From Knoellia locipacati (lineage in GTDB: Bacteria > Actinomycetota > Actinomycetes > Actinomycetales > Dermatophilaceae), in assembly GCF_007992835.1 (NCBI RefSeq), contig NZ_BKBA01000003.1, forward strand, positions 124,001 to 188,000: a stretch of 64,000 bases of DNA, read 5' to 3'. Shown here one piece after another: positions 23,852-41,098 of the stretch. The translations under genes and the position numbers were made by a program. Position 1 is the first letter of the stretch; each line of letters begins with the position of its first letter. The notes under the pieces were generated by a model, which saw only the letters and a program-made list of their open reading frames with translations, was not told where the DNA came from and ran no database searches.

Positions 23852-24436
23852 ATGTCAGCAGTGAGCGGTCCCGACGTCACCAACGGCCGCATCCTCGTGG
23901 TGTGCACCGGCAACATCTGCCGCTCCCCCTACATCGAGCGGGTCCTCGCACGCGAGCTCTCCGGCACGGGGATCGCGGTGTCGAGCGCCGGCACCGGCGC
24001 CCTCGTGGGCTCCCCGGTCGACCCCGAGTCCGCCCAGCGCCTCGTCGCCGTGGGCGCCAACGCCGAGGGGTTCGCCGCCCGCCAGATCACCCGCGAGATC
24101 GTCGCGGCCTCCGACCTCATCATCGGCGCGACGCGCGAGCACCTGTCCGAGGTCGTGCCGCTGCACCCGCGGGCGCTGCGCTACTCGTTCGCCCTCCATG
24201 ACCTCGGCGACCTGCTCGCCGACGTGACGCCGCAGGAGATCGCCGCCGCTCCCGGCCACAACCGGGTGGCCAAGGTGGCCGCTGCAGCGATCGGTCGGCG
24301 CGGCATCGTCAACCCGCGGCTGCCCGAGCAGTCCGGCATCGTCGACCCCTACCGCCAGTCTCCCGAGGTCTTCGACCAGATGGTCACCGAGATCTCCGCC
24401 TCGCTCCCCGCGGTCGTCGCGGCGCTGCGCCACTGA
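23852..24436 (+). CDS. Low-molecular-weight protein tyrosine phosphatase
   Basis: 194 residues. The P-loop CTGNICRSP (CX5R) is near residues 18-26, and the general-acid loop DPYRQSPEVF is near the C-terminus; both are needed for Cys-based phosphatases. In polysaccharide loci this enzyme (Wzb-like) dephosphorylates the BY-kinase, encoded here just downstream in the opposite direction and separated by a hairpin. The ATG at 23852 has both a ribosome-like gggtgagggg and a TAGGGT -10 (23839-23844) seven bases away, so leadered and leaderless starts are both possible. Confidence 0.9.
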   Translation: MSAVSGPDVTNGRILVVCTGNICRSPYIERVLARELSGTGIAVSSAGTGALVGSPVDPESAQRLVAVGANAEGFAARQITREIVAASDLIIGATREHLSEVVPLHPRALRYSFALHDLGDLLADVTPQEIAAAPGHNRVAKVAAAAIGRRGIVNPRLPEQSGIVDPYRQSPEVFDQMVTEISASLPAVVAALRH

Positions 24437-24514: not shown

Positions 24515-25966
24515 TCAGCTCCCGACGAGATCCTTGCGGGGACGGGTCGTCGTGTCGTCCTGACCGCGACGACGGCGACCGCTCTTCTCGCTGCGCTTGC
24601 TCGAGGGCTGGCCCTCCGGGCGGTACTCGTAGCGGTAGTCGTAGTAGCCGCCGCGCGACTGGCGCGGGATGCGGTTGAGCACGACACCCAGGACGGTGCC
24701 GTTGACCGTCTCGAACGTCTCGAGCGCGTGGTCGAACTGGTCCTTGGTGACGACGCCGCTGCCGGCCACGATGATGGCACCGTCGGCGAGGCGGGTGAGG
24801 ACCGTCGAGTCGGTCACGGGCAGCACCGGGGCACCGTCGATGAGGACGTAGTCGAAGCGGCGGCGCAGCTCGTCGAGCGTGTTGCGCATCGACGTGGAGC
24901 CGAGCAGCTCGCTGGGGTTGGGCGGCGAGGCGCCCGCGCCGAGCACGGTGAGCGAGTGCGCACCGAACGGCTGGAGCACGTCGTCGAGCTCGTAGCGGCC
25001 GATGAGCACGTCGGTGAGACCGACGGAGCCCTCGAGCCCGAGGTAGGTCAGCAGACGCGGGCGGCGGAGGTCACCCTCGACGACGCAGACGCTGGCGCCC
25101 GACTCGGCCATGGCCAGCGCGAGGTTCGCGGTCGTCGTCGACTTGCCCTCACCGGCGATCGACGAGGTGACGACGAGGACGCGGGGGTGGTTGGCGGCGT
25201 CGACGAACTGGAGGTTCGTGCGCAGCGACCGAAAGGCCTCGGCGCGCCCGGAGAGCGGGTCGGCCTGGATGATGAGCGGGTGCTTCTCGGCGTCGGCGTC
25301 GAACGGGATCCCGCCGAGGACGACGGCGTCGGTCATGGCCTCGACGTCCTCCTTGGTGCGGAGCTTGGTGTCGAGCATCTGCTTGACCACCGCGGCGGCG
25401 AAGCCCGCGAGGAGTCCGAGCACGAGCCCGAGGGCGAGGTTGCGCGCAGGACGAGGACTCACGGGCGAGGAGGCCACCGAGGGCTCTCGCACGACGGTGA
25501 CCTTGACCGGACTGTCGGCGTCTGCGCTCACTCGCTCGAGGTCGTCCACCATCTTCGGAAATTCCGCTGAGATGGCTTGAGCGATGTCGCGCGCCTTGGT
25601 GGCGTCGGGGTCCGTGACCGACACATCGATGAGGACGGTGTCCGGTGGCGTAGTCGCGGTGATCTTGCCGGCGAGTCCCCCGGGCGTGTCGCTCGCCCCT
25701 GACTTGGCGATGACCGGGTCGAGGAGGCGCGGGGTCTTGAGCAGCTGGCTGTAGGACTTCACACGCTGTTGGGTGAACGTCGAACCCACGGCGAGCTGAG
25801 TGCTGCTCGCCGAGTCCGCGGTGGACACGAAGAACTGGGTGCTGGACGTGTACAGGGGGGTCGAGATCAGCGTCAGCCCGGCCGCGAGGGCGAGCACGAC
25901 GAGTGAGACAGCGACCAGAGTGCGCCAGCGACGGCGTACTATCTGCACGTAACTCATCAGGTCCAA
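24515..25966 (-). CDS. wzc: BY-kinase / polysaccharide co-polymerase (Wzc-like)
   Basis: 483 residues. An N-terminal Wzz domain lies between two membrane helices (about 16-34 and 177-195), followed by a cytoplasmic tyrosine kinase with Walker A SSIAGEGKSTTT, Walker A' VVEGDLRRPR and Walker B VLIDGAPVL, then a C-terminal tyrosine cluster GGYYDYRYEYRPE and a basic tail. Cycling phosphorylation of that cluster controls polymer length. The TTG at 25966 is preferred to the ATG at 25957 because gagga lies six bases before it. A TACTGT -10 candidate (26012-26017, minus strand) would give a ~40-base leader. The phosphatase partner lies convergently downstream. Confidence 0.9.
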   Translation of the reverse strand: MDLMSYVQIVRRRWRTLVAVSLVVLALAAGLTLISTPLYTSSTQFFVSTADSASSTQLAVGSTFTQQRVKSYSQLLKTPRLLDPVIAKSGASDTPGGLAGKITATTPPDTVLIDVSVTDPDATKARDIAQAISAEFPKMVDDLERVSADADSPVKVTVVREPSVASSPVSPRPARNLALGLVLGLLAGFAAAVVKQMLDTKLRTKEDVEAMTDAVVLGGIPFDADAEKHPLIIQADPLSGRAEAFRSLRTNLQFVDAANHPRVLVVTSSIAGEGKSTTTANLALAMAESGASVCVVEGDLRRPRLLTYLGLEGSVGLTDVLIGRYELDDVLQPFGAHSLTVLGAGASPPNPSELLGSTSMRNTLDELRRRFDYVLIDGAPVLPVTDSTVLTRLADGAIIVAGSGVVTKDQFDHALETFETVNGTVLGVVLNRIPRQSRGGYYDYRYEYRPEGQPSSKRSEKSGRRRRGQDDTTTRPRKDLVGS

Positions 25967-26107: not shown

Positions 26108-27915
<1,808 letters not shown>

Positions 27916-27919
<4 letters not shown>

Positions 27920-29064
27920 GCGAGCGGATCCACCTCTCGCGAGCCCACGTCACCGACGTCGAGGAGAAGTACGTCCTCGAGGCCCTGCGCTCCGGCTGGG
28001 TCGCCCCCCTTGGACCCATGGTCGACCGCTTCGAGCGCGAGGTCGCCGAGCGCAGCGGCGTCGCCGGGGCGCTCGCGCTCTCGTCCGGCACCGCCGCCCT
28101 GCACCTGGCACTGCTCGAGCTCGGCGCCGGCCCCGACACCGTCGTCGTCCTGCCCTCGATGACCTTCGCCGCCTCGGCCAACGCCGTCGCCTACACCGGC
28201 GCGGAGCCGGTGTTCGTCGACTCGACCGACGACGCCAACGTCGACGTCGACCTCCTCGTCGAGACGGTCGAGACGCTGCTCTCCGAGGGCCGCACGGTCA
28301 CCGCAGTGATGACCGTCGACCTCTTCGGGCGCTGCTGCGACTACACCGCGCTCGGTGACCGCCTCGAGCGCCTCGGAGTGCCGCTGGTCGAGGACGCCGC
28401 CGAGGCCCTGGGCGCGAGCCACGCCGGCCGCCCCGCCGGCTCGTTCGGCCGGGCCGCGGCGCTGTCGTTCAACGGCAACAAGATCATGACCACCTCGGGT
28501 GGCGGGATGCTGCTCAGCGACGACCTCGAGCTCCTGGCCCGGGCCCGCTACCTCTCGACTCAGGCGCGCCAGCCCGCAGCCTGGTACGAGCACACCGAGA
28601 TCGGCTACAACTACCGGATGTCCAACATCCTCGCGGCGTTGGGCGTCGGTCAGCTCGAGCGCCTCGACTCGATGATCGGGCGTCGCCGCGAGATCCGCCG
28701 TCGCTACACCGCCGGGTTCGCCGACATCGAAGGCTTGACCTTCCTCGGTCGAGGCGCCGACGGTGACGCCTCCGGCGAGGCCAACGACAACCACTGGCTC
28801 ACCTGCATCTCGCTGGACCCGGACAGCGTCGCCGTCGACCCGACCACGCTCATGGCAGGTCTGGACGCCGCCGGCATCGAGGCGCGCCACCTGTGGAAGC
28901 CGATGCACCTCCAGCCGATCCACGCCGACCGCCGCGCCGCCCTCACCGGGGTGAGCGAGCGTCTCTTCGCCACGGGCGTGACCCTGCCCTCCGGTTCCGA
29001 GCTCGGTGACGAGCAGATCGACCGAGTGATCGCGGAGACGCGGCGGCTCCTGCTCGCGTCATGA
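27916..29064 (+). CDS. pglE: DegT/DnrJ/EryC1 aminotransferase, PglE-like
   Basis: 382 residues, a PLP-dependent sugar aminotransferase. The PLP lysine is in SFNGNKIMTTSGGG; DAAEALGASH and the GYNYRMSNI substrate loop are typical of the family. By position between PglF-type and PglC/PglD-type genes it should convert the 4-keto sugar to UDP-4-amino-4,6-dideoxy-GlcNAc (UDP-N-acetylbacillosamine precursor). The GTG overlaps the preceding stop (GTGA). Related enzymes making GDP-perosamine or UDP-4-amino-altrose are less likely given the neighbours. Confidence 0.87.
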
Positions 29065-29675
29065 GCCGGATCGACCGCAAGCGGGTCTTCGACCTCGTCG
29101 TCACGACGCCTGCCCTGGTGCTCTCCCTCCCGGTGCAGGCCGCCGTCGCCGTCGCCGTGCGCCGCAAGCTCGGCTCGCCCGTCCTCTTCGCGCAGGAGCG
29201 GCCCGGCCTCGACGGCGAGGTCTTCGTCATGCGCAAGTTCCGCACGATGCTCGAACCCGACCCCGCCAAGGGCCTGATCTCCGACGCCGACCGGCTCACG
29301 CCGTTCGGCGTCTTCCTGAGGTCCACGAGCCTGGACGAGCTCCCCACCCTCTGGAACATCGTGCGCGGAGACATGTCGGTCGTCGGGCCGCGCCCGCTGC
29401 TCGTGCGCTACCTCGAGCGCTACTCCCCCGAGCAGGCCCGCAGGCACGAGGTGCGCCCCGGCCTGACCGGGCTCGCCCAGGTGAGCGGCCGCAATGCCAC
29501 GAGCTGGGAGCAGCGCCTCGCCCTCGACGTCGAGTACGTCGACACCCACACCCTGCGGGGCGACCTCGCCATCATCGCCCGCACGGTGCGTGCCGTCCTC
29601 AAGCGTGACGGCATCGCGGCCGAAGGCGACGTGACGATGCCCGAGTTCATGGGTGAGGGGGGCGGCCGCGCATGA
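29061..29675 (+). CDS. pglC: Initiating sugar-phosphate transferase, PglC-type monotopic PGT
   Basis: 204 residues, the short form of the bacterial sugar transferase family: one N-terminal re-entrant hydrophobic helix (about 10-30), then the catalytic domain with KFRTM, LDELPTLWNIVRGDMS and VVGPRPLL. Members move a sugar-1-phosphate from UDP-sugar to undecaprenyl phosphate at the inner membrane face, the first step of repeat-unit assembly. The small size and neighbouring pglF/E/D genes suggest di-N-acetylbacillosamine phosphate as the sugar moved. ATGA overlaps on both sides. Confidence 0.88.
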   Translation: MSRIDRKRVFDLVVTTPALVLSLPVQAAVAVAVRRKLGSPVLFAQERPGLDGEVFVMRKFRTMLEPDPAKGLISDADRLTPFGVFLRSTSLDELPTLWNIVRGDMSVVGPRPLLVRYLERYSPEQARRHEVRPGLTGLAQVSGRNATSWEQRLALDVEYVDTHTLRGDLAIIARTVRAVLKRDGIAAEGDVTMPEFMGEGGGRA

Positions 29676-30295
29676 GCGCACGCCTCGTCATCGTCGGCGC
29701 CGGCGGGTTCGCCCGAGAGACCACGGAGATCGCCCGCCGCGCCTACCCGGGCCTGGCCCTGGCCTTCGTCGACGACGCCCCGAGCCACGACGCGCTGCGG
29801 CTCATGGCCGGGCACGGCGCGACCTCACTCGGCACCCTCGACGCGTGGGTCCCCGATCCGCACGACACCTGCGTCATCGCCATCGGAGACCCGGCAGCGC
29901 GAGCCTCGATCGCCGCCTGCCTCGCGGACCGGGGCGCGCGCTTCGCGGTGCTCGTGCACCCGGACGCGACAGTCGCCGACTCCGCGGTCCTCGAGCCCGG
30001 CGTCGTCATCGCCCCCGGCGCGAGGGTCAGCGCGGACGTCATCCTCGGCAGCCACGTGCACGTCGACCAGAACGCCACCATCGGCCACGACACGCGGGTC
30101 GGCGCCTGCGCCCGGCTCAACCCCGCCGCCTGCATCTCGGGCAACGTGTCGATCGGCGAGCGCGCCTACATCGGCGCCGCCGCGGTCGTGCTCCAAGGAC
30201 TCGTCGTCGGTGACGGCAGCACCGTCGGAGCAGGGGCCGTCGTCGTCCGCGACACGCCCCAGGACACCGTCGTCAAGGGGGTGCCGGCCCGATGA
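29672..30295 (+). CDS. pglD: Sugar O/N-acetyltransferase, PglD/NeuD-type
   Basis: 207 residues. An N-terminal nucleotide-sugar binding half (VIVGAGGFARE) is followed by a left-handed beta-helix of hexapeptide repeats (for example VVIAPGARVSADV and IGHDTRVGACARL), containing the catalytic His of NATIGHD. It matches the PglD/NeuD family that acetylates the 4-amino group of UDP-amino-dideoxy-GlcNAc using acetyl-CoA. With PglF and PglE it completes UDP-N,N'-diacetylbacillosamine synthesis. Confidence 0.87.
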   Translation: MSARLVIVGAGGFARETTEIARRAYPGLALAFVDDAPSHDALRLMAGHGATSLGTLDAWVPDPHDTCVIAIGDPAARASIAACLADRGARFAVLVHPDATVADSAVLEPGVVIAPGARVSADVILGSHVHVDQNATIGHDTRVGACARLNPAACISGNVSIGERAYIGAAAVVLQGLVVGDGSTVGAGAVVVRDTPQDTVVKGVPAR

Positions 30296-31512
30296 GGATC
30301 GGCTACATCACCCAGTGGTTCCCGCCCGAGCCCGGCACCCACGTGGCCGCCGGCATCGCGACCGGTCTCGCCGAGCGAGGCCACGAGGTCGACGTCATCA
30401 CGGGCTTCCCGAACTACCCGACGGGCCGCATCCAGGAGGGCTGGAAGCAGCAGTCCTACCTCCGCGAGGAGTACGCACCCGGCGTCACGCTGCACCGCAG
30501 CCCCCTCTACGCCAGCCACGACAAGAGCGCCGTGCACCGCATGGGCAACTACCTGAGCTTCGCGGCCTCGGCGACGATGACGGCGAACCTTCGCGTGCCG
30601 CGGCCCGACGCCTGGCTCGTCTACTCGTCGCCGGCGACGGCAGCCGTGCCCGCCCTGCTCGCCCGCCGTGGCCGCCGCGCACCGATCTGCCTGCACATGC
30701 AGGACCTGTGGCCCGACAGCGTCACCGGCAGCCACTTCGTCGAGGGCCGCACCCTCAAGGCGATGGAGCGCGCGCTCCACGTCTTCACCAACGCGTCCTA
30801 CCGGGTCGCGAGCCGCATCGGCGTCATCGCGCCGAGCATGGAGCACATCCTCGTCGACCGTGGTGTCCCGGCCGACAAGATCCGCTGGGTCCCGAACTGG
30901 AGCGACAGCGCCCAGGTGGCGGACAGCAGCGAGCGCCGCGCACTCGGCCTGCCCGAGGGCCCTCTCTTCCTGTATGCCGGCAACCTCGGCACGCTCCAGG
31001 GCCTCCTTCCGCTCGTCGAGGCCTTCAAGGAGGTCCCCGAGGCGCAGCTCGTCCTCATGGGCGACGGCATCGAGAAGGACGAGCTCACCCGCGCCGCGCA
31101 GGCCGCACCGGCGGGCAACGTGCACGTCCACGACAGCGTCCCGTCCGACGTCGTCGGCCGACACCTCAGCTCCGCCGACGTCCTCGTCGTCTCGCTCCAG
31201 GACTCCCCCCTGCTCCGGGCCACGATGCCGAGCAAGGTGCAGTCCTCGCTGGCGGCCGGCAAGCCGATCCTCGTGCACGGCGCCGGTGACGTCGCCGATG
31301 TCGTGACCGACTCCGGTGCCGGCGTGGCCGTGACGCCGGGCAACCACCGTGAGGTGGCACACGGCATACGCACGCTGGCGACATCGCCCCAGACCTGGGC
31401 GCGCAGGGGCGCCGCGGCGAGGCGGCACTACGAAAACATCTTCGCTCCGGACGTGGGTCTTTCGCGTCTGGAGAGCATGGTCCTCGAGGCCGCGACGAAA
31501 GGGCAGCAATGA
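30292..31512 (+). CDS. wbuB: GT4 glycosyltransferase, WbuB-like
   Basis: 406 residues in a GT-B fold with QWFPPEPGTHVAAGIA at the N-terminus, SPPLYAS-type loop, LYAGNLGTLQGL and PSKVQSSLAAGKPILV in the donor half. It resembles WbuB-type transferases, which add N-acetyl-L-fucosamine. The capE-F-G genes immediately downstream make UDP-L-FucNAc, so this enzyme probably places L-FucNAc on the lipid-linked bacillosamine. Donor identity is inferred from context. Four-base overlaps with both neighbours. Confidence 0.78.
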   Translation: MRIGYITQWFPPEPGTHVAAGIATGLAERGHEVDVITGFPNYPTGRIQEGWKQQSYLREEYAPGVTLHRSPLYASHDKSAVHRMGNYLSFAASATMTANLRVPRPDAWLVYSSPATAAVPALLARRGRRAPICLHMQDLWPDSVTGSHFVEGRTLKAMERALHVFTNASYRVASRIGVIAPSMEHILVDRGVPADKIRWVPNWSDSAQVADSSERRALGLPEGPLFLYAGNLGTLQGLLPLVEAFKEVPEAQLVLMGDGIEKDELTRAAQAAPAGNVHVHDSVPSDVVGRHLSSADVLVVSLQDSPLLRATMPSKVQSSLAAGKPILVHGAGDVADVVTDSGAGVAVTPGNHREVAHGIRTLATSPQTWARRGAAARRHYENIFAPDVGLSRLESMVLEAATKGQQ

Positions 31513-32537
31513 GTTCGATGGCCGGGGCCTTCGTGACGATCACCGGGGGCACCGGGTCGTTCGGCTCGACGATGGTCCACTCCCTCCTCGAGCGGGGGGT
31601 CGACCGGATCAACATCCTCAGCCGTGACGAGGCCAAGCAGGACGAGATGCGCCAGCGGCTCGGGGACTCGCGGGTCAAGTTCTTCGTCGGCGACGTCCGG
31701 GACTACTCCAGCGTCGAGAGCTCGGTCATCGGTGCCGACTTCGTCTTCCACGCCGCGGCGCTCAAGCAGGTCCCGTCGTGCGAGTTCTTCCCCGACCAGG
31801 CGGTCAAGACCAACGTCACCGGCAGCCGCAACGTCATCGAGGCCTCGCACCGGGCCGGCGTGAAGTCCGTGGTCTGCCTCAGCACCGACAAGGCCGTCTA
31901 CCCGGTCAACGCCATGGGCATGTCCAAGGCGCTCATGGAGAAGACGGCGCAGGCGTTCGCGCGCAACCACCCGAACTCCCCCACCACCGTCTCGATCACC
32001 CGCTACGGCAACGTCATGTACTCGCGCGGGTCGGTCATCCCCCTCTTCGTCCGCCAGCTCCAGGAGGGCAAGCCGCTCACCGTCACCGAGCCGACGATGA
32101 CGCGCTACCTCATGTCGCTCCAGGAGTCGGTCGACCTCGTCGAGCACGCCTTCCACCACGCCGAGAGCGGCGACCTCTTCGTCAAGAAGGCGCCGGCCTC
32201 CACCGTCGAGACGCTGGCCCGCGCGGTCTCGATCGTCCTCGGCCACGGCGACCCCGAGGTGCGACGGATCGGCATGCGCCACGGCGAGAAGATGTTCGAG
32301 ACGCTGCTGACCCGCGAGGAGCTGCTCAAGTCCGAGGACCAGGGCGACTACTTCCGGGTGCCGCTCGACGCGCGCTCGCTCGAGTACGAGCTCTTCGTCG
32401 AGGAGGGCGAGACCGACATCCGCGACGTCACGGACTACGACTCCAACAACACCGAGCGCATGACGGTCGAGCAGACCTGCGACCTGCTGCGCACACTCCC
32501 CGAGATCCAGCAGCTCACCGGGGAGACGGTCGCGTGA
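31509..32537 (+). CDS. capE: UDP-GlcNAc 4,6-dehydratase/5-epimerase (CapE)
   Basis: 342 residues, a soluble short-chain dehydrogenase of the CapE group. Cofactor loop TGGTGSFGSTMV at residues ~13-24, then STDKAVYPVNAMGMSK with the catalytic Lys, and TRYGNVMYSRGSV. It inverts C5 while dehydrating UDP-GlcNAc, the first step to UDP-L-FucNAc. It is shorter than the pglF product and lacks membrane helices, so the operon holds two different dehydratases acting on the same substrate. Operon overlaps are ATGA upstream and GTGA downstream. Confidence 0.92.
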   Translation: MSSMAGAFVTITGGTGSFGSTMVHSLLERGVDRINILSRDEAKQDEMRQRLGDSRVKFFVGDVRDYSSVESSVIGADFVFHAAALKQVPSCEFFPDQAVKTNVTGSRNVIEASHRAGVKSVVCLSTDKAVYPVNAMGMSKALMEKTAQAFARNHPNSPTTVSITRYGNVMYSRGSVIPLFVRQLQEGKPLTVTEPTMTRYLMSLQESVDLVEHAFHHAESGDLFVKKAPASTVETLARAVSIVLGHGDPEVRRIGMRHGEKMFETLLTREELLKSEDQGDYFRVPLDARSLEYELFVEEGETDIRDVTDYDSNNTERMTVEQTCDLLRTLPEIQQLTGETVA

Positions 32538-33640
32538 AGGTCGTCCTCACCGGCGCCGGCGGCTTCCTCGGCTGGCACACGCGGCTGCGTCTCGCGGCGC
32601 TCACCGACCACGAGGTCGTCCCCGTCGACCGCACCTCGTGGGCGGGCCTGACCGAGGCCGTGTCCGACGCCGACGCGGTCATCCACATCGCCGGTGTCAA
32701 CCGCGCCGACGACGACACCGTCCGTCAGGGCAACGAGGACCTCGCGCGCGACGTCGCCGCGGCAGTGTCCGCCTCGGGTCGTCCGGTCCGCGTCGTCTAC
32801 GCCAACTCGATCCAGGACGGCAACGGCACGGCATACGGGATCGGCAAGGGCCGCGCCCGCGAGGTCCTCGCCGCGTCCGCCGAGGCGACCGGGGGCTCGC
32901 TCGTCGACGTGCGGCTGCCGAACCTCTTCGGCGAGCACGGGCGGCCGGCATACAACTCGTTCGTCGCGACGTTCGTCCACGCCGTCCGCGACGTCTCGAC
33001 ACCGACCGTGAACGACAACACGGTCGGCCTGCTCCACGCGCAGGGTGCGGCCGCATCCCTCCTCGACGGTCTCACCGGCGACGCCCGCCGCATCGACCCG
33101 GGCAGCACGCCGGTCACGGTGCGCGAGGTGCTCGACCTGCTCCAGGAGTTCAAGGCGTCCTACGACACCGGTGAGATCCCCGACCTGTCGACGCCGTTCC
33201 GGGTGGACCTGTTCAACACCTACCGCGCGGCGCTCTTCCCCGAGCACTACCCGATCGCGCTCACGCCCCACACCGACCCGCGCGGAACGTTCGTCGAGAC
33301 GATCCGGGTCCGCGGCGGTGAGGGCCAGGCGTCCTTCTCGACCACGGTCCCCGGCATCACCCGCGGCGAGCACTACCACCTGCGCAAGATCGAGCGGTTC
33401 GCCGTCATCTCAGGCGAGGCACGCATCTCCCTTCGCAGGATGTTCACCGACGAGGTCGTCGACTTCGACGTCACCGGCGAGGAGCCCTGCGCCGTCGACA
33501 TGCCCGTCGGCTGGGTCCACAACATCACCAACACGGGCGCTGACACCCTTGTCACACAGTTCTGGTCGCACGAGCTGCACCGACCGGAGGACCCCGACAC
33601 CTACCCCGAGCCCGTCCGCCCGCAGGGAGCATCCGCATGA
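32534..33640 (+). CDS. capF: Bifunctional UDP-sugar epimerase/reductase with cupin domain (CapF)
   Basis: 368 residues in two parts: an N-terminal SDR domain (TGAGGFLGWHTRLRL; ANSIQDGNGTAYGIGKG with the Tyr-x3-Lys pair) and a C-terminal cupin of about 110 residues (GEHYHLRKIERF, DMPVGWVHNI) that holds metal-binding histidines. This is the CapF arrangement: the cupin epimerises C3 and the SDR domain reduces C4, giving UDP-6-deoxy-L-talNAc. The GTG overlaps the capE stop. Confidence 0.92.
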   Translation: MKVVLTGAGGFLGWHTRLRLAALTDHEVVPVDRTSWAGLTEAVSDADAVIHIAGVNRADDDTVRQGNEDLARDVAAAVSASGRPVRVVYANSIQDGNGTAYGIGKGRAREVLAASAEATGGSLVDVRLPNLFGEHGRPAYNSFVATFVHAVRDVSTPTVNDNTVGLLHAQGAAASLLDGLTGDARRIDPGSTPVTVREVLDLLQEFKASYDTGEIPDLSTPFRVDLFNTYRAALFPEHYPIALTPHTDPRGTFVETIRVRGGEGQASFSTTVPGITRGEHYHLRKIERFAVISGEARISLRRMFTDEVVDFDVTGEEPCAVDMPVGWVHNITNTGADTLVTQFWSHELHRPEDPDTYPEPVRPQGASA

Positions 33641-34770
33641 AGGTCATGACGATCGTCGGGACCCGTCCCGAGCTGATCCGCCTGTCCCGAGTGATCCACC
33701 GGCTCGACGAGACCGTCGACCACGTCCTCGTGCACACGGGCCAGAACTACGACTATGCCCTCAATGAGGTCTTCTTCAGCGACCTCGGCATCCGCAAGCC
33801 CGACCACATGCTCGGCGTCGACACGTCCAGCCTGGGCGCGGTCCTCGGCGGCACCCTCATCGCGGCCGAGAAGGTCATGCTCGAGGAGCGCCCCGACGCG
33901 GTCCTCGTCCTGGGTGACACGAACTCCTGCATCGCCGCGGTCATGGCCAAGCGCCTGCGCATCCCGACCTACCACATGGAGGCCGGCAACCGCTGCTTCG
34001 ACGAGAACGTCCCCGAGGAGACCAACCGTCGCCTCGTCGACCACGTCGCCGACTTCAACCTCGTCTACACCGAGCACGGCCGCCGCAACCTCCTCGCCGA
34101 GGGCCTGCACCCGCGCCGCATCATCAAGACGGGCTCGCCGATGCGCGAGGTCCTCGACGCCTACCGCGACGAGATCCTCGCCTCCGACGTCCTCGACCGG
34201 TTCGAGCTCACCGAGGGCGGCTACTACCTCGTGAGCGCCCACCGCGAGGAGAACGTCGACTCCCCCGAGCGCCTGCGCGCCCTCATCGACTGCCTCACAG
34301 CGGTGTATGCCGCGTTCGGCCTTCCCGTGTTCGTCTCGACCCACCCGCGCACCCGCAAGCGGCTCGAGGCGCTGCCGGACTGGTCCGAGCCCGAGGGCAT
34401 CACCTTCAGCGACCCGCTCGGCTTCCACGACTACAACAAGCTCCAGCTCTCCGCCGCGTGCTGCCTGTCCGACTCGGGGACGATCGCCGAGGAGTCGACG
34501 CTGCTCGGCTTCCCCGCCGTCACGCTGCGGGACTCGATCGAACGCCCGGAGGCCCTCGACACCGGCGGCATCATCATGACCGGTCTGCACGCCGACGACG
34601 TCGTGGCGGGGGTGCGCGCGGCGATGGCCACCCCTCGTGGTCGCGACGGCGTCAGCCACCTCACGCCCGACGACTACCTCATCGACAACACGAGCGAGCG
34701 CACCATCAACTTCATCCTCTCAACGGCCAACCGCCACCACGCGTGGGCGGGCATCCGGAGAACCTCATGA
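33637..34770 (+). CDS. capG: UDP-sugar 2-epimerase, non-hydrolysing (CapG)
   Basis: 377 residues, GT-B-like fold with TIVGTRPELIRLSRV at the start, HTGQNYDYALN, HMEAGNR and SAHREENVD, all typical of the WecB/CapG family. It converts UDP-6-deoxy-L-talNAc to UDP-N-acetyl-L-fucosamine, completing the pathway begun by CapE and CapF. Its stop overlaps the ATG of the next gene by four bases, although base composition changes abruptly exactly there. Confidence 0.92.
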   Translation: MKVMTIVGTRPELIRLSRVIHRLDETVDHVLVHTGQNYDYALNEVFFSDLGIRKPDHMLGVDTSSLGAVLGGTLIAAEKVMLEERPDAVLVLGDTNSCIAAVMAKRLRIPTYHMEAGNRCFDENVPEETNRRLVDHVADFNLVYTEHGRRNLLAEGLHPRRIIKTGSPMREVLDAYRDEILASDVLDRFELTEGGYYLVSAHREENVDSPERLRALIDCLTAVYAAFGLPVFVSTHPRTRKRLEALPDWSEPEGITFSDPLGFHDYNKLQLSAACCLSDSGTIAEESTLLGFPAVTLRDSIERPEALDTGGIIMTGLHADDVVAGVRAAMATPRGRDGVSHLTPDDYLIDNTSERTINFILSTANRHHAWAGIRRTS

Positions 34771-35996
34771 GGAACCGGACCGCTCAGGTTGATCCGAACA
34801 ATCGCGACGCGGACGTCGTCGTGATCACTTTCGACTCCTACCCCCTTTCAACGCGATCCCGCAAGGCCGCTCGGGCTTATGCCGAAGCAGGCATGCGCGT
34901 TCAGTTTGTGGGCATGTCTCGCGCTGGACGTACCGGAAGGTGGTCGCCAGCGGGCAGGACGCGCGCCGATGGGATCGATATCCTCAGCGTCGACATGCGG
35001 GCACCAGACCTTGAACCAACAAGGCTGAACATCGTTCGCAATGTCGCACTTACCTACGTACCCGCCATCTTCCGGATGGCCAAAGAGGCGCTCGGCACTC
35101 CGGCTGGGGTCGTCCATACGACAGGGTCCGCGCTCTCGCTTCTAGGCGTTGCCCACAAAGTGCTTCACAGATCGAAATTCGTACTGGACATCCCGGAACG
35201 ACCGGGAGCTGTCGCGGCCCGAGGTTCCGCTGCAGCCGCGTTTGCCCGCGTAGAACGCATCGTCCTTCGGGCCGCACGGCCCTTTGTCGATGTCGCTTCG
35301 GTCGTGGTGGAGCCGGACGTTCACCACCTGCGCGACCGCGGCTTCGATGATGTTGTGCAGGTACGGAACGCTCCGATGAAATCGTGGCTTGCCCCATACG
35401 TCGATATGCCACCCTCACCAGTACGTTTCGCCGTCATAGGCAGCATTTTCGAAGGACGGGGCTACGAGACTCTGATTCGGGCCGCTGCGCGTGCTCAGAA
35501 GGACGCGAACTTCCAGATATACATCTACGGAAAGGGCCGCGACAGTTTTACTGGTCACCTCAAGAACCTTTCTAGCGAGCTCGGGGCGGACCGCACGATC
35601 GTCTGGGCCGGCTCGCTACCGAGCGACCAAGTCAGCCGCGCATACCTGGATGCGCACGTCGGTGTCGTTCTGTACGAGTCCCTCGACCCTGGCAACGATG
35701 GACTATCAAACAAGCTTCTCGAGTGCATTGCATCAGGGCGACCAGTCTTGGCAGGAGACCTACCCGAGAATCGCAAGTTCGTGACTCAGCACCAGGCGGG
35801 CTGGCTGACCGACGTCTCGGAAGAGGCGCTGGCACATTCGATCGTCGAGGTGGCCAACACCACCATTGATCTCGACGTGATGGGTCAACACTGTCGAGAC
35901 TTGGGCGAGACAGCCCTCACGTGGGAAGGCGAGTTCGCACCGATCATTGAGCGGATGCGTTCAACCAACTCAGCGTCTGCCGCTAACTCCTCGTAG
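34767..35996 (+). CDS. Glycosyltransferase (GT4-like), low G+C
   Basis: 409 residues. GT-B-like: VVITFDSYPLSTRSRKAARAY at the N-terminus, then FAVIGSIFEGRGYETLIRAA, YIYGKGRD and NDGLSNKLLECIASGRPVLAG in the donor-binding half. It should add one sugar of the repeat unit; donor and linkage are unknown. G+C is visibly lower than in capG, and codons such as TAT, AGA and CGA appear. Despite that, it is joined to capG by an ATGA overlap. Its 3' end overlaps the convergent flippase gene by 27 bases. Confidence 0.82.
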   Translation: MRNRTAQVDPNNRDADVVVITFDSYPLSTRSRKAARAYAEAGMRVQFVGMSRAGRTGRWSPAGRTRADGIDILSVDMRAPDLEPTRLNIVRNVALTYVPAIFRMAKEALGTPAGVVHTTGSALSLLGVAHKVLHRSKFVLDIPERPGAVAARGSAAAAFARVERIVLRAARPFVDVASVVVEPDVHHLRDRGFDDVVQVRNAPMKSWLAPYVDMPPSPVRFAVIGSIFEGRGYETLIRAAARAQKDANFQIYIYGKGRDSFTGHLKNLSSELGADRTIVWAGSLPSDQVSRAYLDAHVGVVLYESLDPGNDGLSNKLLECIASGRPVLAGDLPENRKFVTQHQAGWLTDVSEEALAHSIVEVANTTIDLDVMGQHCRDLGETALTWEGEFAPIIERMRSTNSASAANSS

Positions 35997-37421
35997 GACA
36001 AGGCTGGCCTCGGCTCGGTTCAAGGCGAGCCAGACGCCAAGGAACGCAACGGCCCCGCACACCTGGACGACCACTGAAGTCCCCTCCGTCAGCACGCTCA
36101 GGCCCCATACCAACAGCAACGCTGCAAAGACTTTGAGCGATAGCCCGACCCAAGCGTGGCCATCGCGGTACCAAGTCACCGCGATGGGGACCAAGGCGAT
36201 GATCAGCGATCCCGCGACGTAGCCCCACGCGATGGCTTGCACCCCCAACGAACCGAAGATCGCCCATGCGATGCAGCCTACGAGCGCGCCAGAGAGAGAC
36301 GATGCGGCTGAGATTCGCATCCCAACCTCAGATCTGGTGGTGATGGCACTCACTGACGGCGAACTGATCCCGCCGATAGCGACGGCTGCAAGCAGAAGCG
36401 GCATGACGACGACGACATCAGGGAAGTCGGGGCCCCAGAGAAGGTCAACAAGGCCTTCCCGGACGATCACCACCACCCCCAGTCCGCCAATCAGGGCCAG
36501 ACACAACACCCTCGTCGCCTGATCCGTAATCCTGCGGAACTCATGAGTTGATCCACCACCCCAAGCCCTTGCCAAGGTGGGGTAGAGCACGACACTCAGA
36601 CCTGCAGCCACCAAGGAGAGGGGCGTCGCCAACGTCAAAGAGGCCGAATATTGTCCTGCGCCTTCCAGCCCCGCAAAGTGACGCGCCGCCAAAAGGGACA
36701 GTTGGAGGAATCCTGCGCTGCTGATGGTTCCTACCGTACCGAGAATGACGAATCTACGAATTTCCTTGTTGAGCACCTGATCGAAGTCTGAACCGGCAAG
36801 CCGAGGAATCGACAAGATTGTGTAAAGGGCGTACCCGCAGGCTACCGGCAGGAGAACGACGATACTGCGGATTCCAAAGACCATGAACAAACAAAGCCCA
36901 ACGAGGCCCGCAGCGCCGGTCAAAACGTCAGTGAAGACCGCGCGGCGCACATTCCCCGAACCGAAGAGAATTCCTCGGGTTGTGGTCCAACCCGCCAGAC
37001 CGAGGGTGAGGAGGACAACCGTAAGACACTCAAGCCAGGAACCACGCTCCACGAGCCTCCAGTAGGTAAGGCTCATCACGGCCGCGACCAGTTGGAAGAT
37101 CATCAGGCGACGGATGAAGTAGCCGGCCACTTTCTGCATTTCACCGACATCGCGCCTCCCCAGCGCCAGTCCAACGAAGCGCGACGCTGCCGCGCCGGCA
37201 GCAGCGGGCCAGAGCAGGACAATCAACTGTGAAATGGAGAGAGCCGTGGCCGTGAGACCGAGCAGAATCGCCCCGGCCACATTACCGATGAGGATGTTCG
37301 TGACGAACCGGACACCACCCTGCCAGCCGACACCAAGCATGCCGAGCAGGCCGCCCTTACCTATCGAGCTCGAGCCGATCTCTCTATTGAAGTCGACACG
37401 CTCCCATCTCAAACTAGGCAT
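35970..37421 (-). CDS. wzx: Polysaccharide flippase, Wzx/MATE-like
   Basis: 483 residues with about 12-14 membrane helices and little soluble sequence, the profile of the oligosaccharide flippase family that moves undecaprenyl-linked repeat units across the membrane. A typical loop between helices is IRRFVILGTVGTISSAG. The ATG at 37421 sits eight bases inside the end of the upstream glycosyltransferase gene; the frame is open for 56 more codons but those lie inside that gene. Sampled G+C is about 57%. Confidence 0.82.
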   Translation of the reverse strand: MPSLRWERVDFNREIGSSSIGKGGLLGMLGVGWQGGVRFVTNILIGNVAGAILLGLTATALSISQLIVLLWPAAAGAAASRFVGLALGRRDVGEMQKVAGYFIRRLMIFQLVAAVMSLTYWRLVERGSWLECLTVVLLTLGLAGWTTTRGILFGSGNVRRAVFTDVLTGAAGLVGLCLFMVFGIRSIVVLLPVACGYALYTILSIPRLAGSDFDQVLNKEIRRFVILGTVGTISSAGFLQLSLLAARHFAGLEGAGQYSASLTLATPLSLVAAGLSVVLYPTLARAWGGGSTHEFRRITDQATRVLCLALIGGLGVVVIVREGLVDLLWGPDFPDVVVVMPLLLAAVAIGGISSPSVSAITTRSEVGMRISAASSLSGALVGCIAWAIFGSLGVQAIAWGYVAGSLIIALVPIAVTWYRDGHAWVGLSLKVFAALLLVWGLSVLTEGTSVVVQVCGAVAFLGVWLALNRAEASLVLRGVSGRR

Positions 37422-38481
37422 GCTTCTCCATGTCTGCGGTCCGACCCATCGCTTCAACCAAGACCGCGGCCGACCGTTGGCCACCGTGAACACTGGCCAC
37501 ATATTCAGGGCCTGCGCTGGCCAAGCGCTGTAGATGCGATCGGTCTGATAGCACCTCTCGGAATCCTTGCAAGAAGGTGCCGGGATCAAGGTCCACGATC
37601 GGCAACTCGCGCCCGATTACCCTCCGGGTAGCCGCGCCAACGTTAGCGATGGTCAGCCGGCCCGAGGCCATGGCTTCCACTGCGCTGACTCCAAAAGAAT
37701 CCGTGAGCACCTGATCAACCACAATGTCGGCCTCCTGGAGCAATGCGGGCATCTCGGCGTGCGACACATGCCGCCCCCGAATCCACGTGATAGCCCCCTC
37801 ACGCTCCAGTTGCTCCAGGGCTGGCTCGATGAACTGCGAACCCTTGATGGGGGGATTTCTACGGGTAGGCATGTGGAGCACCTTGGGCTTGGCGGAGCTG
37901 AAAGCAACCGCGCCCGCGGAAAATCGGTCCACATCTACACAGAGAGGGAGCCAGATCGCCTCAGGATTGTCGATGAGCAAATCCGGCGTGGAAACGAGCA
38001 ACGGTGCTCCCAGGGCATCACGGACACGCCGATTCTGTCGCACCCGCTGGCGCGCCTGGTCAACGAATTCGCCATCAGCATATTTGAAGTACGAGTAGGG
38101 TACGCGACTCAGATGCGCATCTGGATCGCGAGTGTCAGATCCATGTGAGATGAGAATGAGTTCGCGCCCGTTCCCCGCCACACGACGATAATCCCTGAGG
38201 AGCGAGCCGACACGTGGCATTGAATAGACTCGCTGGAATCCGTCGACTGCTACATGCGTGAACCTTTTAAGGAGCGAGTCGGCGGCACGCCTTCGAACCC
38301 ATGGGTTGGAGCGAGTACCCGGAATCTGGTTGTCGGCTGAGAAATTGAAGCCGGGATTGCCGCCGACATACTCAAACGATTCAGCATCTATCGAGGAATA
38401 TAGGTGCACCGCTCGCGCCCACTGATGGGCCTGACCTGCATAGTTGGCCGGCCCGATAGCGAGTAACGGGTTGTTGATCAT
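37414..38481 (-). CDS. Glycosyltransferase, low G+C
   Basis: 355 residues. The N-terminal half starts LLAIGPANYAGQAHQWARAV. The C-terminal half has the features of GT-B donor domains: VLHMPTRRNPPIKGS, ADIVVDQVLTDSFGVSAVEAMASGRLTIANV and a following loop. A GT4-like transferase acting on the same repeat unit is the best reading, but similarity to any named enzyme is weak. The start overlaps the polymerase stop as ATGA, and the end overlaps the flippase start by eight bases. Confidence 0.7.
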   Translation of the reverse strand: MINNPLLAIGPANYAGQAHQWARAVHLYSSIDAESFEYVGGNPGFNFSADNQIPGTRSNPWVRRRAADSLLKRFTHVAVDGFQRVYSMPRVGSLLRDYRRVAGNGRELILISHGSDTRDPDAHLSRVPYSYFKYADGEFVDQARQRVRQNRRVRDALGAPLLVSTPDLLIDNPEAIWLPLCVDVDRFSAGAVAFSSAKPKVLHMPTRRNPPIKGSQFIEPALEQLEREGAITWIRGRHVSHAEMPALLQEADIVVDQVLTDSFGVSAVEAMASGRLTIANVGAATRRVIGRELPIVDLDPGTFLQGFREVLSDRSHLQRLASAGPEYVASVHGGQRSAAVLVEAMGRTADMEKHA

Positions 38482-39926
38482 TGGCGACTCCCCGCCTGGC
38501 GATCAGGCGAAGCGGCGGGCTCGTTCTCACCCTCGACAGAGGGTGTGGCGCGTATCAGGCCTGCGAGTGCGACGGAATAGCCGATAAGCAGCCACCAAGT
38601 CCCGTCCGCGATAAGCGAACTTGCCGAGAGGCCGCCGGCCAGCACACCAATGAGTACCAAGGAAAGCTCCAAACGTATGTGTCCCGTCCAGCGCACAACC
38701 CGTCCGTGCTCCTTGTGCAGGACGGATGACGCCAGCCAGAACATCATCCATACAACTGGAACGAAGACGATGACGCCGTACTCGGCGCCGATCTGGAGAA
38801 AGGTGTTGTGCGCGTCGGTCACTAGGCCCACGTTTCGCCCGGGATCACTGCGCAGATAGGAGACGAAGCTTCCCGGACCGATACCCAGACCGTCGGAGTC
38901 GATGGCGTACTTGGCTGCCGCCTGCGCGAGTCCGACGCGCATTTCGTCGCTCTGTGCATCGACGTCAGAGAACGTTCCACTCATTGACGAGATGATGCGT
39001 CCCGAGAAGAGGAGTGCTGCAACTCCGGCCGAAAGAAGCATCGCTGGGATGGACAGCACATGCCGGTTCTGCCCATGAAGCGGCCAGAGCATACCCACGC
39101 AAAGCACCAGCAATCCCGCGATGACGGCCGTGCGACTGAGTGTATGAATGGCAAGAAAACCTGCGAGGACGATCAGAAGAAGGCAGGAGAACCGAAGCAG
39201 CTTGGAGGCCGTGCGCCGTGCCACCACGATGGTTGGCCCCACGAAAGCCACCAGAAAGGACGCATAGTTGTTCGGATTGATGTACGGACCGCCAAGGGCA
39301 TCGCCGGCCAGCCACTGCCTTCCAGCTCTCGCCTCCCAAGAGACTCCGGTGACGTACTCAATGAGCCCCATGATCGCGAGCGCTCCCAAGGCAAGCACCA
39401 TGCCTATGCGTGCTGCCCGATGGGCGGACGGTGTTCGACAGAGCACTGCGATAATGACGGCCCCTACGCAGCCAAAAATGGAAGCAACAACCTGGCGGGA
39501 TCCTTGGGCAGGATTCTGACTCCACTGCAGCGACAGTGTCCCCCAGACCGCGAATAGGGCCGTGATCACCACGAGGAGGTTGAGACCCCGGGAATACACG
39601 CGCTCACGAATTGCGATAATTAACGTCGGGAGGATTGCGGCAAGGATAAGAATCCGAGACGCATATGGCTGTGACGCCGCCCCGGGGACGGGCGACACCC
39701 ATACCGAAAGCGCGGAGAGGGGCGGCAAGGCGACAAGTACTAGCTCTGAGGCTCGCCATCGGGACCCCGCTCCCGCAGTCGTCCCACGCGATGAGCCCCC
39801 TACTCGACTTTCGGGGTCAGAGATTCGAACGGCTCGCGATCGATCTTGCCTGAGGTTCGACCTTGGTTGGTTCACCCGCGCAGGGTGGGACCGCTTCGGT
39901 TGGGAATGTCCGCCTGTGTACGTCAA
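38478..39926 (-). CDS. wzy: O-antigen ligase/polymerase-like membrane protein (Wzy candidate)
   Basis: Up to 482 residues. A ~60-residue basic, Ser/Arg-rich lead is followed by about 12 membrane helices. The family marker is the large external loop ending in DAHNTFLQIGAEYGVI near residues 365-380, typical of Wzy_C (O-antigen ligase/polymerase) proteins. In this locus with a flippase and BY-kinase it is the likely repeat-unit polymerase. The start is uncertain: TTG at 39926 or GTG at 39875, neither with a good ribosome site. It lies six bases after the ugd stop. Confidence 0.8.
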   Translation of the reverse strand: MTYTGGHSQPKRSHPARVNQPRSNLRQDRSRAVRISDPESRVGGSSRGTTAGAGSRWRASELVLVALPPLSALSVWVSPVPGAASQPYASRILILAAILPTLIIAIRERVYSRGLNLLVVITALFAVWGTLSLQWSQNPAQGSRQVVASIFGCVGAVIIAVLCRTPSAHRAARIGMVLALGALAIMGLIEYVTGVSWEARAGRQWLAGDALGGPYINPNNYASFLVAFVGPTIVVARRTASKLLRFSCLLLIVLAGFLAIHTLSRTAVIAGLLVLCVGMLWPLHGQNRHVLSIPAMLLSAGVAALLFSGRIISSMSGTFSDVDAQSDEMRVGLAQAAAKYAIDSDGLGIGPGSFVSYLRSDPGRNVGLVTDAHNTFLQIGAEYGVIVFVPVVWMMFWLASSVLHKEHGRVVRWTGHIRLELSLVLIGVLAGGLSASSLIADGTWWLLIGYSVALAGLIRATPSVEGENEPAASPDRQAGSRQ

Positions 39927-39931
39927 GACAC

Positions 39932-41098
39932 TCAGTCCCGGCCGAAGAGATCGCGGGTGTAGACCTTGTCGGACACGTCGTCGAGGTCGTCGCTCAGCCG
40001 GTTCGCCACGATGACATCCGCGCGAGCCTTGAACTCGTCGAGGTCGCGCACAACCTCGGAGTTGTAGAACCGGTCGTCCTCGAGCGCCGGCTCGTAGAGC
40101 ACGACCTCGATCCCCTTGGCCTTGATCCGCTTCATGATCCCCTGGATGCTCGACACCCTGAAGTTGTCCGAGCCGGCCTTCATGATGAGGCGGTACATCC
40201 CGACGACGCGGGGCTGGCGGCGCAGGATGTCGGTGGCGATGAAGTCCTTGCGCGTCGTGTTGGAGTCGACGATCGCGCGGATGAGGTTCTGCGGCACCTG
40301 GTCGTAGTTCGCGAGCAGCTGGCGCGTGTCCTTGGGCAGGCAGTAGCCGCCGTAGCCGAACGACGGGTTGTTGTAGTGCGACCCGATCCGCGGGTCGAGC
40401 CCGACCCCGTCGATGATCGCGCGGGTGTCGAGACCGTGCGACACGGCATACGTGTCGAGCTCGTTGAAGTAGGCGACCCGCATCGCGAGGAACGTGTTCG
40501 CGAAGAGCTTGATCGCCTCCGCCTCGGTGGGGTTCGTGTGCAGCACGGGCACGTCGGCGTCGATCGCGCCCTCGACGAGCAGCTCGCCGAAGCGCCGGGC
40601 CGCGTCGCTCGCCCCGCCGACGACGACCCGGCTCGGGTGGAGGTTGTCGTAGAGCGCGCGTCCCTCGCGCAGGAACTCGGGCGAGAAGACGACGTCGAGA
40701 CCGGCGTATGCCGTCCGCATCCGTTCCGTGAACCCGACCGGCACCGTGGACTTGACGACGACGGTCGCCCCGGGAGCCAGCCGTGACACCGACTCGATGA
40801 CCGACTCGACCGACGAGGTGTCGAAGAAGTCGCGGTCCGGGTCGTAGTCGGTCGGGGTGGCGACGACGACGAAGTCCGAGCCGGGCAGCGCCTCGTCGGC
40901 CGAGGTCGTCGCGGTGAGCCTCAGCTCGTGGTGCGCGAGGTAGTCCTCGAGCTCGGGATCGACCAACGGCGACTCGCGCCGGTTGACCTGGTCGACGCGG
41001 TGGGGGTTGAGGTCCACGGCGACGACGTCGTGGTGCTGGGCGAGTACGACTGCGTTGGAGAGGCCGACATAACCCAGGCCCACCACGGAGATCTTCAC
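39932..41098 (-). CDS. ugd: UDP-glucose 6-dehydrogenase
   Basis: 388 residues, the length of E. coli-type Ugd. The NAD loop [15 protein letters not shown] starts the protein, [11 protein letters not shown] follows, and the catalytic Cys is in [12 protein letters not shown]. It oxidises UDP-glucose to UDP-glucuronate, a likely acidic component of the surface polymer. The GTG lies six bases after TAGGTT on the minus strand (41105-41110), so the message is probably leaderless. Composition and the GTATGCCG octamers are of the chromosomal type, unlike the polymerase gene beginning only six bases on. Confidence 0.93.

Follow-up and report, generated by a model that had tools for sequence, protein, structure and literature searches.

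A low-G+C block of repeat-unit genes in a variable surface polysaccharide slot of Knoellia locipacati

In the O-antigen gene clusters of Salmonella, as described in PMC3715488, a serovar-specific central region carries glycosyltransferase, wzx and wzy genes with a very low G+C content, the pathway genes are intermediate in G+C, and exchange has been proposed to occur via crossovers in flanking or shared genes. The surface polysaccharide loci of Enterobacteriales exchange their contents between species, and the account in PMC7305143 recognizes recent exchange where the genes of the locus are among those with the highest similarity between two genomes. For Pseudomonas aeruginosa, PMC9973846 describes O-antigen serotype switching in which the cluster is replaced by recombination and the import can extend past the cluster. 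Our literature search for actinobacterial wzx/wzy loci found none, although such papers may still exist. Here we analyze a 64,000-nucleotide stretch of the genome of the actinobacterium Knoellia locipacati (contig NZ_BKBA01000003.1, positions 124,001 to 188,000; hereafter, the window), in which a low-G+C cassette of four genes (34,771-39,930) encoding two glycosyltransferases, a flippase and a polymerase lies between capG and ugd. This surface polysaccharide locus, of the Wzx/Wzy type by gene content, is predicted to produce and export a polymer, and the cassette would form its variable center. The layout and the outcome, a replaced middle between conserved flanks, are observed directly; that the blocks were replaced by homologous recombination through the flanking genes appears quite likely.

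Composition and gene content of the cassette

The G+C content of the cassette is 0.605. Across 400 kb sampled from this genome as twenty 20-kb stretches, 18 of which come from the contig that holds the window, the mean is 0.720. None of the 600 overlapping 5,160-bp windows of this sample (mean 0.720, standard deviation 0.013, minimum 0.670) is as low, which confirms the low-G+C cassette of the original prediction, although the 57% sequence line cited there slightly overstates the contrast. The predicted coincidence of the compositional change with the two gene junctions also holds: G+C at third codon positions (GC3) drops from about 0.95 to 0.65-0.69 at both, with values of 0.671, 0.694, 0.646 and 0.669 for the first glycosyltransferase (GT1), the flippase, the second glycosyltransferase (GT2) and the polymerase, respectively, against 0.983 for capE, 0.930 for capF, 0.952 for capG and 0.954 for ugd. 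When the edges are placed by composition only, the left one falls at 34,673, with 3-log-unit support (34,613-34,825) that spans the capG junction, and the right one at 40,198 (support 40,017-40,591), within ugd, because the overall G+C of ugd is just 67%. Given the difference in GC3 between ugd and the polymerase, the right edge at the codon level is the junction of these two genes, so that the codon-level edges of the cassette are the capG/GT1 and polymerase/ugd junctions. GC3 as low as that of the cassette was found in none of 222 sampled genes, a count biased towards the claim because the gene picker behind it was trained on high-GC3 genes (a sister script missed GT2); the comparison of 5,160-bp windows is free of that bias. 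The four genes clearly have a foreign base composition.

All four open reading frames (ORFs) of the cassette are polysaccharide genes. GT1 (34,767-35,996, plus strand; PF13692, 3.4e-15) overlaps capG at ATGA, whereas the remaining three run on the minus strand, co-directional with ugd: the Wzx-like flippase of the MOP fold (35,970-37,421), GT2 (37,414-38,481; PF13692, 3.6e-06, 27.7 bits versus a cut-off of 27) and the Wzy_C-type polymerase (38,478-39,926, exact start uncertain; PF04932, 3e-14). The GT1 and flippase ORFs converge tail to tail with a 27-bp overlap, and the polymerase lies 5 bp behind ugd, provided that its TTG start holds. GT1 and GT2 (group 1 glycosyltransferase families) and the polymerase all score above the Pfam gathering thresholds, GT2 barely so, and the PF04932 match places the polymerase with the Wzy/O-antigen ligase-type enzymes. 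The flippase itself has no Pfam match, but its alignment members and its fold place it in the MOP superfamily. At E<=0.01, MurJ is matched by 9 of the 12 alignment members and Polysacc_synt by 5 of the 12, with MatE also among the matches of the relatives; the predicted structure (mean predicted local distance difference test score, pLDDT, 88.7) matches those of MATE, MurJ and WzxE, with template modeling (TM) scores of about 0.6-0.7 among the matches listed, whereas a sequence profile search found no solved structure. The cassette is bounded on the left by the capG/fnlC-like UDP-GlcNAc 2-epimerase (33,637-34,770, plus strand; TIGR00236, above cut-off) and on the right by the UDP-glucose 6-dehydrogenase gene ugd (39,932-41,098, minus strand; TIGR03026, above cut-off; NF011631, 609 bits where 757 are required).

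The slot beside ugd across the genus

We compared nine genomes of the genus, one per species (the window genome and eight congeners, denoted G001 to G008), excluding alignment pieces below bit cut-offs of 100, 120, 150 or 200, depending on the comparison. An ortholog of ugd is present in all eight congeners, and an aquaporin gene adjoins ugd in all nine genomes. Close orthologs of capG are found in two of the eight congeners (amino acid identity 96% in G005 and 91% in G004). The DNA of these two genomes aligns with the window at 79-80% identity up to 34,757, in the last codons of capG, does not align across the cassette, and resumes from 39,929-39,932 at about 86% identity; beside ugd they carry inserts of 5.66 kb (G005, G+C 0.590) and 5.09 kb (G004, G+C 0.603). 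In G002, G006 and G001, the DNA on the left stops aligning as early as about 29,650-30,240, and the acetyltransferase gene is separated from ugd by 5.1, 3.7 and 6.1 kb of inserted DNA, respectively. The slot is empty in the remaining three species: the stop codons of the acetyltransferase gene and ugd are 6 bp apart in G007 and 5 bp apart in G008, and in G003 the stop codon of the phosphatase gene lies 7 bp from that of ugd. In all eight congeners the right edge is the ugd stop codon, at or within 3 bp. Thus, the comparison across genomes, here made between species, bears out the expectation of conserved flanks with a replaced (five congeners) or empty (three congeners) middle; the same four genes with core-like composition everywhere, the opposite outcome, were not seen in this comparison between species.

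The content, order and strand of the slot genes vary between species. Among the 20 insert proteins scanned, glycosyltransferase matches were detected in all five other occupied slots, Wzy_C in three (G005, G006 and G001), and a Pfam flippase-type match in two (G002 and, below cut-off, G005); the slots of G004, G002, G006 and G001 each encode one or two proteins without a Pfam match, which may be the missing flippases or polymerases. The polymerase of the window is absent from all eight congeners at E<=1e-15, GT1 has a weak match in the G001 slot (2e-9), and the flippase (32%) and GT2 (40%) have distant homologs in the G005 slot, where gene order and strand are different. In the 1.4 kb next to ugd, G+C is 0.569-0.665 for the six occupied slots versus 0.676-0.714 for the three empty ones. 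Over the whole slot, G+C is 0.59-0.63 in five of the six occupied slots; with G002 at 0.633 and G006, the mildest, at 0.669, the inserts appear to be of different age or origin.

Exchange of blocks and its alternatives

In the mechanism that we favor, the glycosyltransferases, flippase and polymerase, situated between a sugar-nucleotide operon ending in capEFG and ugd, would fix the structure of the repeat unit, and two operons would meet tail to tail at the slot between the capG side and ugd. Such a junction would tolerate swaps because an incoming block could be read from the left operon on the plus strand or behind ugd on the minus strand, with no promoter broken. Crossovers within the genes on either side would let homologous recombination exchange whole blocks, the low-G+C part most recently and from a donor of roughly 60% G+C. 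The C-terminal codons of capG differ according to the insert, as expected if the incoming DNA carried its own capG end, that is, if crossovers fell inside the flanking genes. Conserved flanks, a replaced middle, foreign composition, the lack of close relatives of the flippase, GT2 and polymerase in the family genomes searched, the absence of an integrase-type gene from the cassette and the insert-specific capG tails all argue for the part of the original prediction that invoked homologous recombination through the flanks. The part that took just the four genes as the unit of exchange is not borne out, given that the left edge varies among species. Serotype switching, as the original prediction called it, would take place among strains of one species, whereas the present comparison is between species.

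The left operon and its surroundings illustrate this variation. The polysaccharide region begins with a Wzb-like low-molecular-weight tyrosine phosphatase (23,852-24,436, plus strand; PF01451, 1.1e-20), followed on the minus strand by a Wzc-like putative chain-length regulator/kinase with Wzz and AAA domains (24,515-25,957; PF02706, 1.7e-11; AAA_31, 3.9e-09). On the plus strand, the left operon encodes a CapD-like nucleoside-diphosphate-sugar epimerase/dehydratase (26,141-27,919; PF02719, 1.7e-100), with orthologs in three of the eight congeners (the compared stretches of G004 and G005 end short of the gene), and a DegT-type aminotransferase (27,916-29,064; NCBIfam LegC/PseC-type models, below cut-offs), with orthologs in seven of the eight. 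The initiating sugar-phosphate transferase (29,061-29,675, plus strand; PF02397, Bac_transf, 9.6e-58), near the end of which lies the left edge of the outer variable interval, precedes a NeuD/PglD-like acetyltransferase (29,672-30,295, plus strand; Hexapep, 3.7e-17; PglD_N, 5.6e-09) and a WcaI-like GT4 glycosyltransferase (30,292-31,512, plus strand; PF13579, PF00534), orthologs of which were found in G005 (69%) and G004 (54%), with none at 45% or more in the other six congeners. Upstream of capG are, on the same strand, the capE/fnlA-like UDP-GlcNAc 4,6-dehydratase/5-epimerase (31,509-32,537; TIGR04130, 1e-126, below the equivalog cut-off) and the capF/fnlB-like reductase (32,534-33,640; PF14667; NF047837, below cut-off). 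By homology, this FnlA/FnlB/FnlC-like set points to UDP-L-FucNAc or a relative as the product. The region thus includes the accessories of a Wzx/Wzy locus, namely, Bac_transf, the Fnl-type genes (two of the three below equivalog cut-offs), ugd, Wzz/AAA and the low-molecular-weight phosphatase.

Near the end of the sugar-phosphate transferase gene, at about 29,647, the alignments with G002, G005 and G001 are interrupted. Depending on the species, the left edge of exchange lies at capG, at the sugar transferase/acetyltransferase or, in a single species, at the phosphatase gene. Judging from these alignments, the variable interval exceeds 5.2 kb and extends from after the sugar transferase (about 29,650), with the acetyltransferase and capEFG as nested layers. 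The acetyltransferase comes in two main types in the genus, 40-46% alike, with that of G008 intermediate; the window protein is 69-74% identical to those of G007 and G006 and 41-43% identical to those of G001, G002 and G005. Its relationships are at odds with those of ugd, G002 being closest to the window by ugd (93%) and only 42% identical by acetyltransferase; no other observation points as clearly to recombination within the operon. Differences from the congeners at fourfold sites amount to 35-61% across the left-hand genes, of which the phosphatase is the first and capG the last, and 16-41% in the right-hand genes ugd, aquaporin, idh, galE and mdh.

Several observations weigh against exchange. 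Fourfold-site differences in the left-hand core genes at 19-23.8 kb (29-55%) overlap with those of the left operon, so this measure supports exchange weakly. No donor was found in 186 genomes of the family or, for the polymerase, in 396 genomes of the order. The best relatives in the family are 33% identical for the polymerase, 39-40% for the flippase and 40-42% for GT2 (GT1 was not searched there), and among the order genomes only the polymerase of the window itself passes 1e-40. The nearest named capG, at 84%, is from Janibacter sp. Soil728, probably another genus of the same family because its idh is 74% identical in DNA, and within about 5.4 kb after this capG there are distant relatives of GT1 (41%), the flippase (33%) and the polymerase (31%). 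With one genome per species, the comparison neither dates an event nor reveals a crossover tract; in some congener slots no protein could be assigned as flippase or polymerase; functions across the locus are assigned by homology alone; and, given the flippase and GT2 homologs in G005, part of the cassette may have been resident for long and have diverged where it stands. As for a plasmid vehicle, the plasmid collection yielded no polymerase match and, for GT1, seven weak matches, none covering 80% (28-33% identical among the matches listed), and this candidate was rejected.

The idea of old residents can be extended to the entire cassette: its genes would be long-standing residents, poorly expressed and fast-evolving membrane and transferase genes under weak selection, rather than imports, and their low G+C would stem from that regime. 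The similar G+C of five of the six occupied slots despite their differing contents fits this explanation, as do the shared distant homologs in G005 and the remark in PMC3715488 that wzx and wzy are often lowest in G+C, a pattern that needs an explanation. However, GC3 is 0.78-0.98, with an overall G+C near that of the respective locus, in 10 of the 11 flippase relatives (the exception, from G005, is in the same slot), which rules out low G+C as a property of the flippase family. Beyond this family, the comparison covers Soil728, where GC3 of the polymerase, flippase and GT1 relatives is 0.80-0.86 versus 0.93 for capG, also somewhat low. Residence is further contradicted by the G006 slot at 0.669, by the variation of content, order and strand together with the three empty slots, and by a second polysaccharide region of the same genome, in which G+C is a normal 0.67-0.77 per kb. 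Altogether, we regard long residence of the genes as unlikely.

This second region (contig C3, 45,001-65,000) holds paralogs of the UDP-GlcNAc 2-epimerase and the UDP-sugar dehydrogenase, as well as two GT2 paralogs, one of them within a 923-codon open frame. A general drop in G+C at either flank was also considered and rejected. Among the 26 capG-side loci used (of 80, chosen for a length of 20.5 kb or more and a capG G+C above 0.6), the 4 kb after capG falls more than 5 points below the 4 kb before it in just one, L020. Beside ugd, in the 21 loci used from other genera (a match was found in 121 genomes outside the genus), the 1.4 kb downstream is in no case more than 1 point below ugd, and in none of the 21 is the aquaporin gene adjacent to ugd.

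A discrete mobile element (a transposon, integron-type cassette or integrative element) that has since lost its mobility genes would account for the gene-precise right edge at the ugd stop codon. As originally predicted, no such machinery marks the edges: no integrase or transposase was found among the 24 slot proteins scanned (a subset of the ORFs), no tRNA or tmRNA gene in the window, and the repeats around the cassette are imperfect (70-88%), with none framing it. Together with the left edge that varies between species and the insert-specific capG tails, this makes arrival as such an element very unlikely. Assembly chimera or contamination, for which nothing but the odd composition speaks, can be practically dismissed, considering that the cassette lies inside a 932-kb contig and is ATGA-coupled to capG, the genome scores 99.98 for completeness and 0 for contamination, and five congeners carry inserts at the same place.

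The octamer GTATGCCG was also examined. As noted in the original prediction, it is missing from the cassette, with 47 copies in the window; because 17 of 1,200 sampled 5,160-bp windows also lack it, this absence by itself is modest evidence. Across the six occupied slots of the genus (30,827 bp), there are two octamers, both in G002, versus 21.2 expected at the flank rate (21.7 with a slightly longer G001 slot), which agrees with arrival from octamer-free genomes. The 3.59-Mb genome contains 2,535 copies (1,266 forward and 1,269 reverse) versus 99 of the reversed control, an approximately 25-fold enrichment; enrichment ranges from about 12- to 50-fold in the nine genomes of the genus and from none to about 50-fold over 149 genomes of the family. 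In these respects the octamer resembles an uptake or other genome-marking sequence. To our knowledge, no function has been described for it; it is not mentioned in the titles and opening parts of abstracts of the papers listed in searches on uptake sequences in Actinobacteria, and the papers among the matches listed in a search with the octamer letters look unrelated. Speculatively, sequence-biased uptake of DNA could feed the ugd-side slot as a plug-in site throughout the genus, with GTATGCCG as a candidate mark of kin DNA, in which case octamer-dense flanks would carry foreign centers in by transformation and recombination; we consider this scenario distinctly unlikely.

Two further features of the octamer were observed. 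In the 400-kb sample, 9 of the 12 octamer pairs less than 60 bp apart are inverted. On contig C2 of the same genome, at about 37,000-83,000, the 18 octamers among the matches listed are all on the plus strand, whereas contig C1 and the start of C2 are mixed; this bias may reflect a local or replication-linked polarity, the whole-genome count being balanced.

Comparison with described polysaccharide loci

The natural empty sites fix the limits of the slot with a precision of a few bases and make it a clean place for studying the diversification of surface sugars, which is probably driven here by pressure from phages or predators. The distinctive points of the locus are these clean empty sites and the two-strand layout.

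Compared with the Salmonella O-antigen clusters as presented in PMC3715488, the locus shares low-G+C glycosyltransferase, wzx and wzy genes, for which exchange by flanking crossovers has been proposed there. It differs in that the host is an actinobacterium of 72% G+C, the composition of capEFG is entirely that of the host, some of the block follows ugd on the opposite strand, and species rather than serovars are compared. As in the loci of Enterobacteriales covered by PMC7305143, the contents differ between species, but no near-identical copy was found here. In the P. aeruginosa case reported in PMC9973846, switching was shown among closely related isolates, whereas here one genome per species was compared. 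The mode of surface-sugar change is the familiar one, known in detail from Gram-negative pathogens; here it is seen in a less-studied genus of high-G+C Actinobacteria, to which the pattern is thereby extended.

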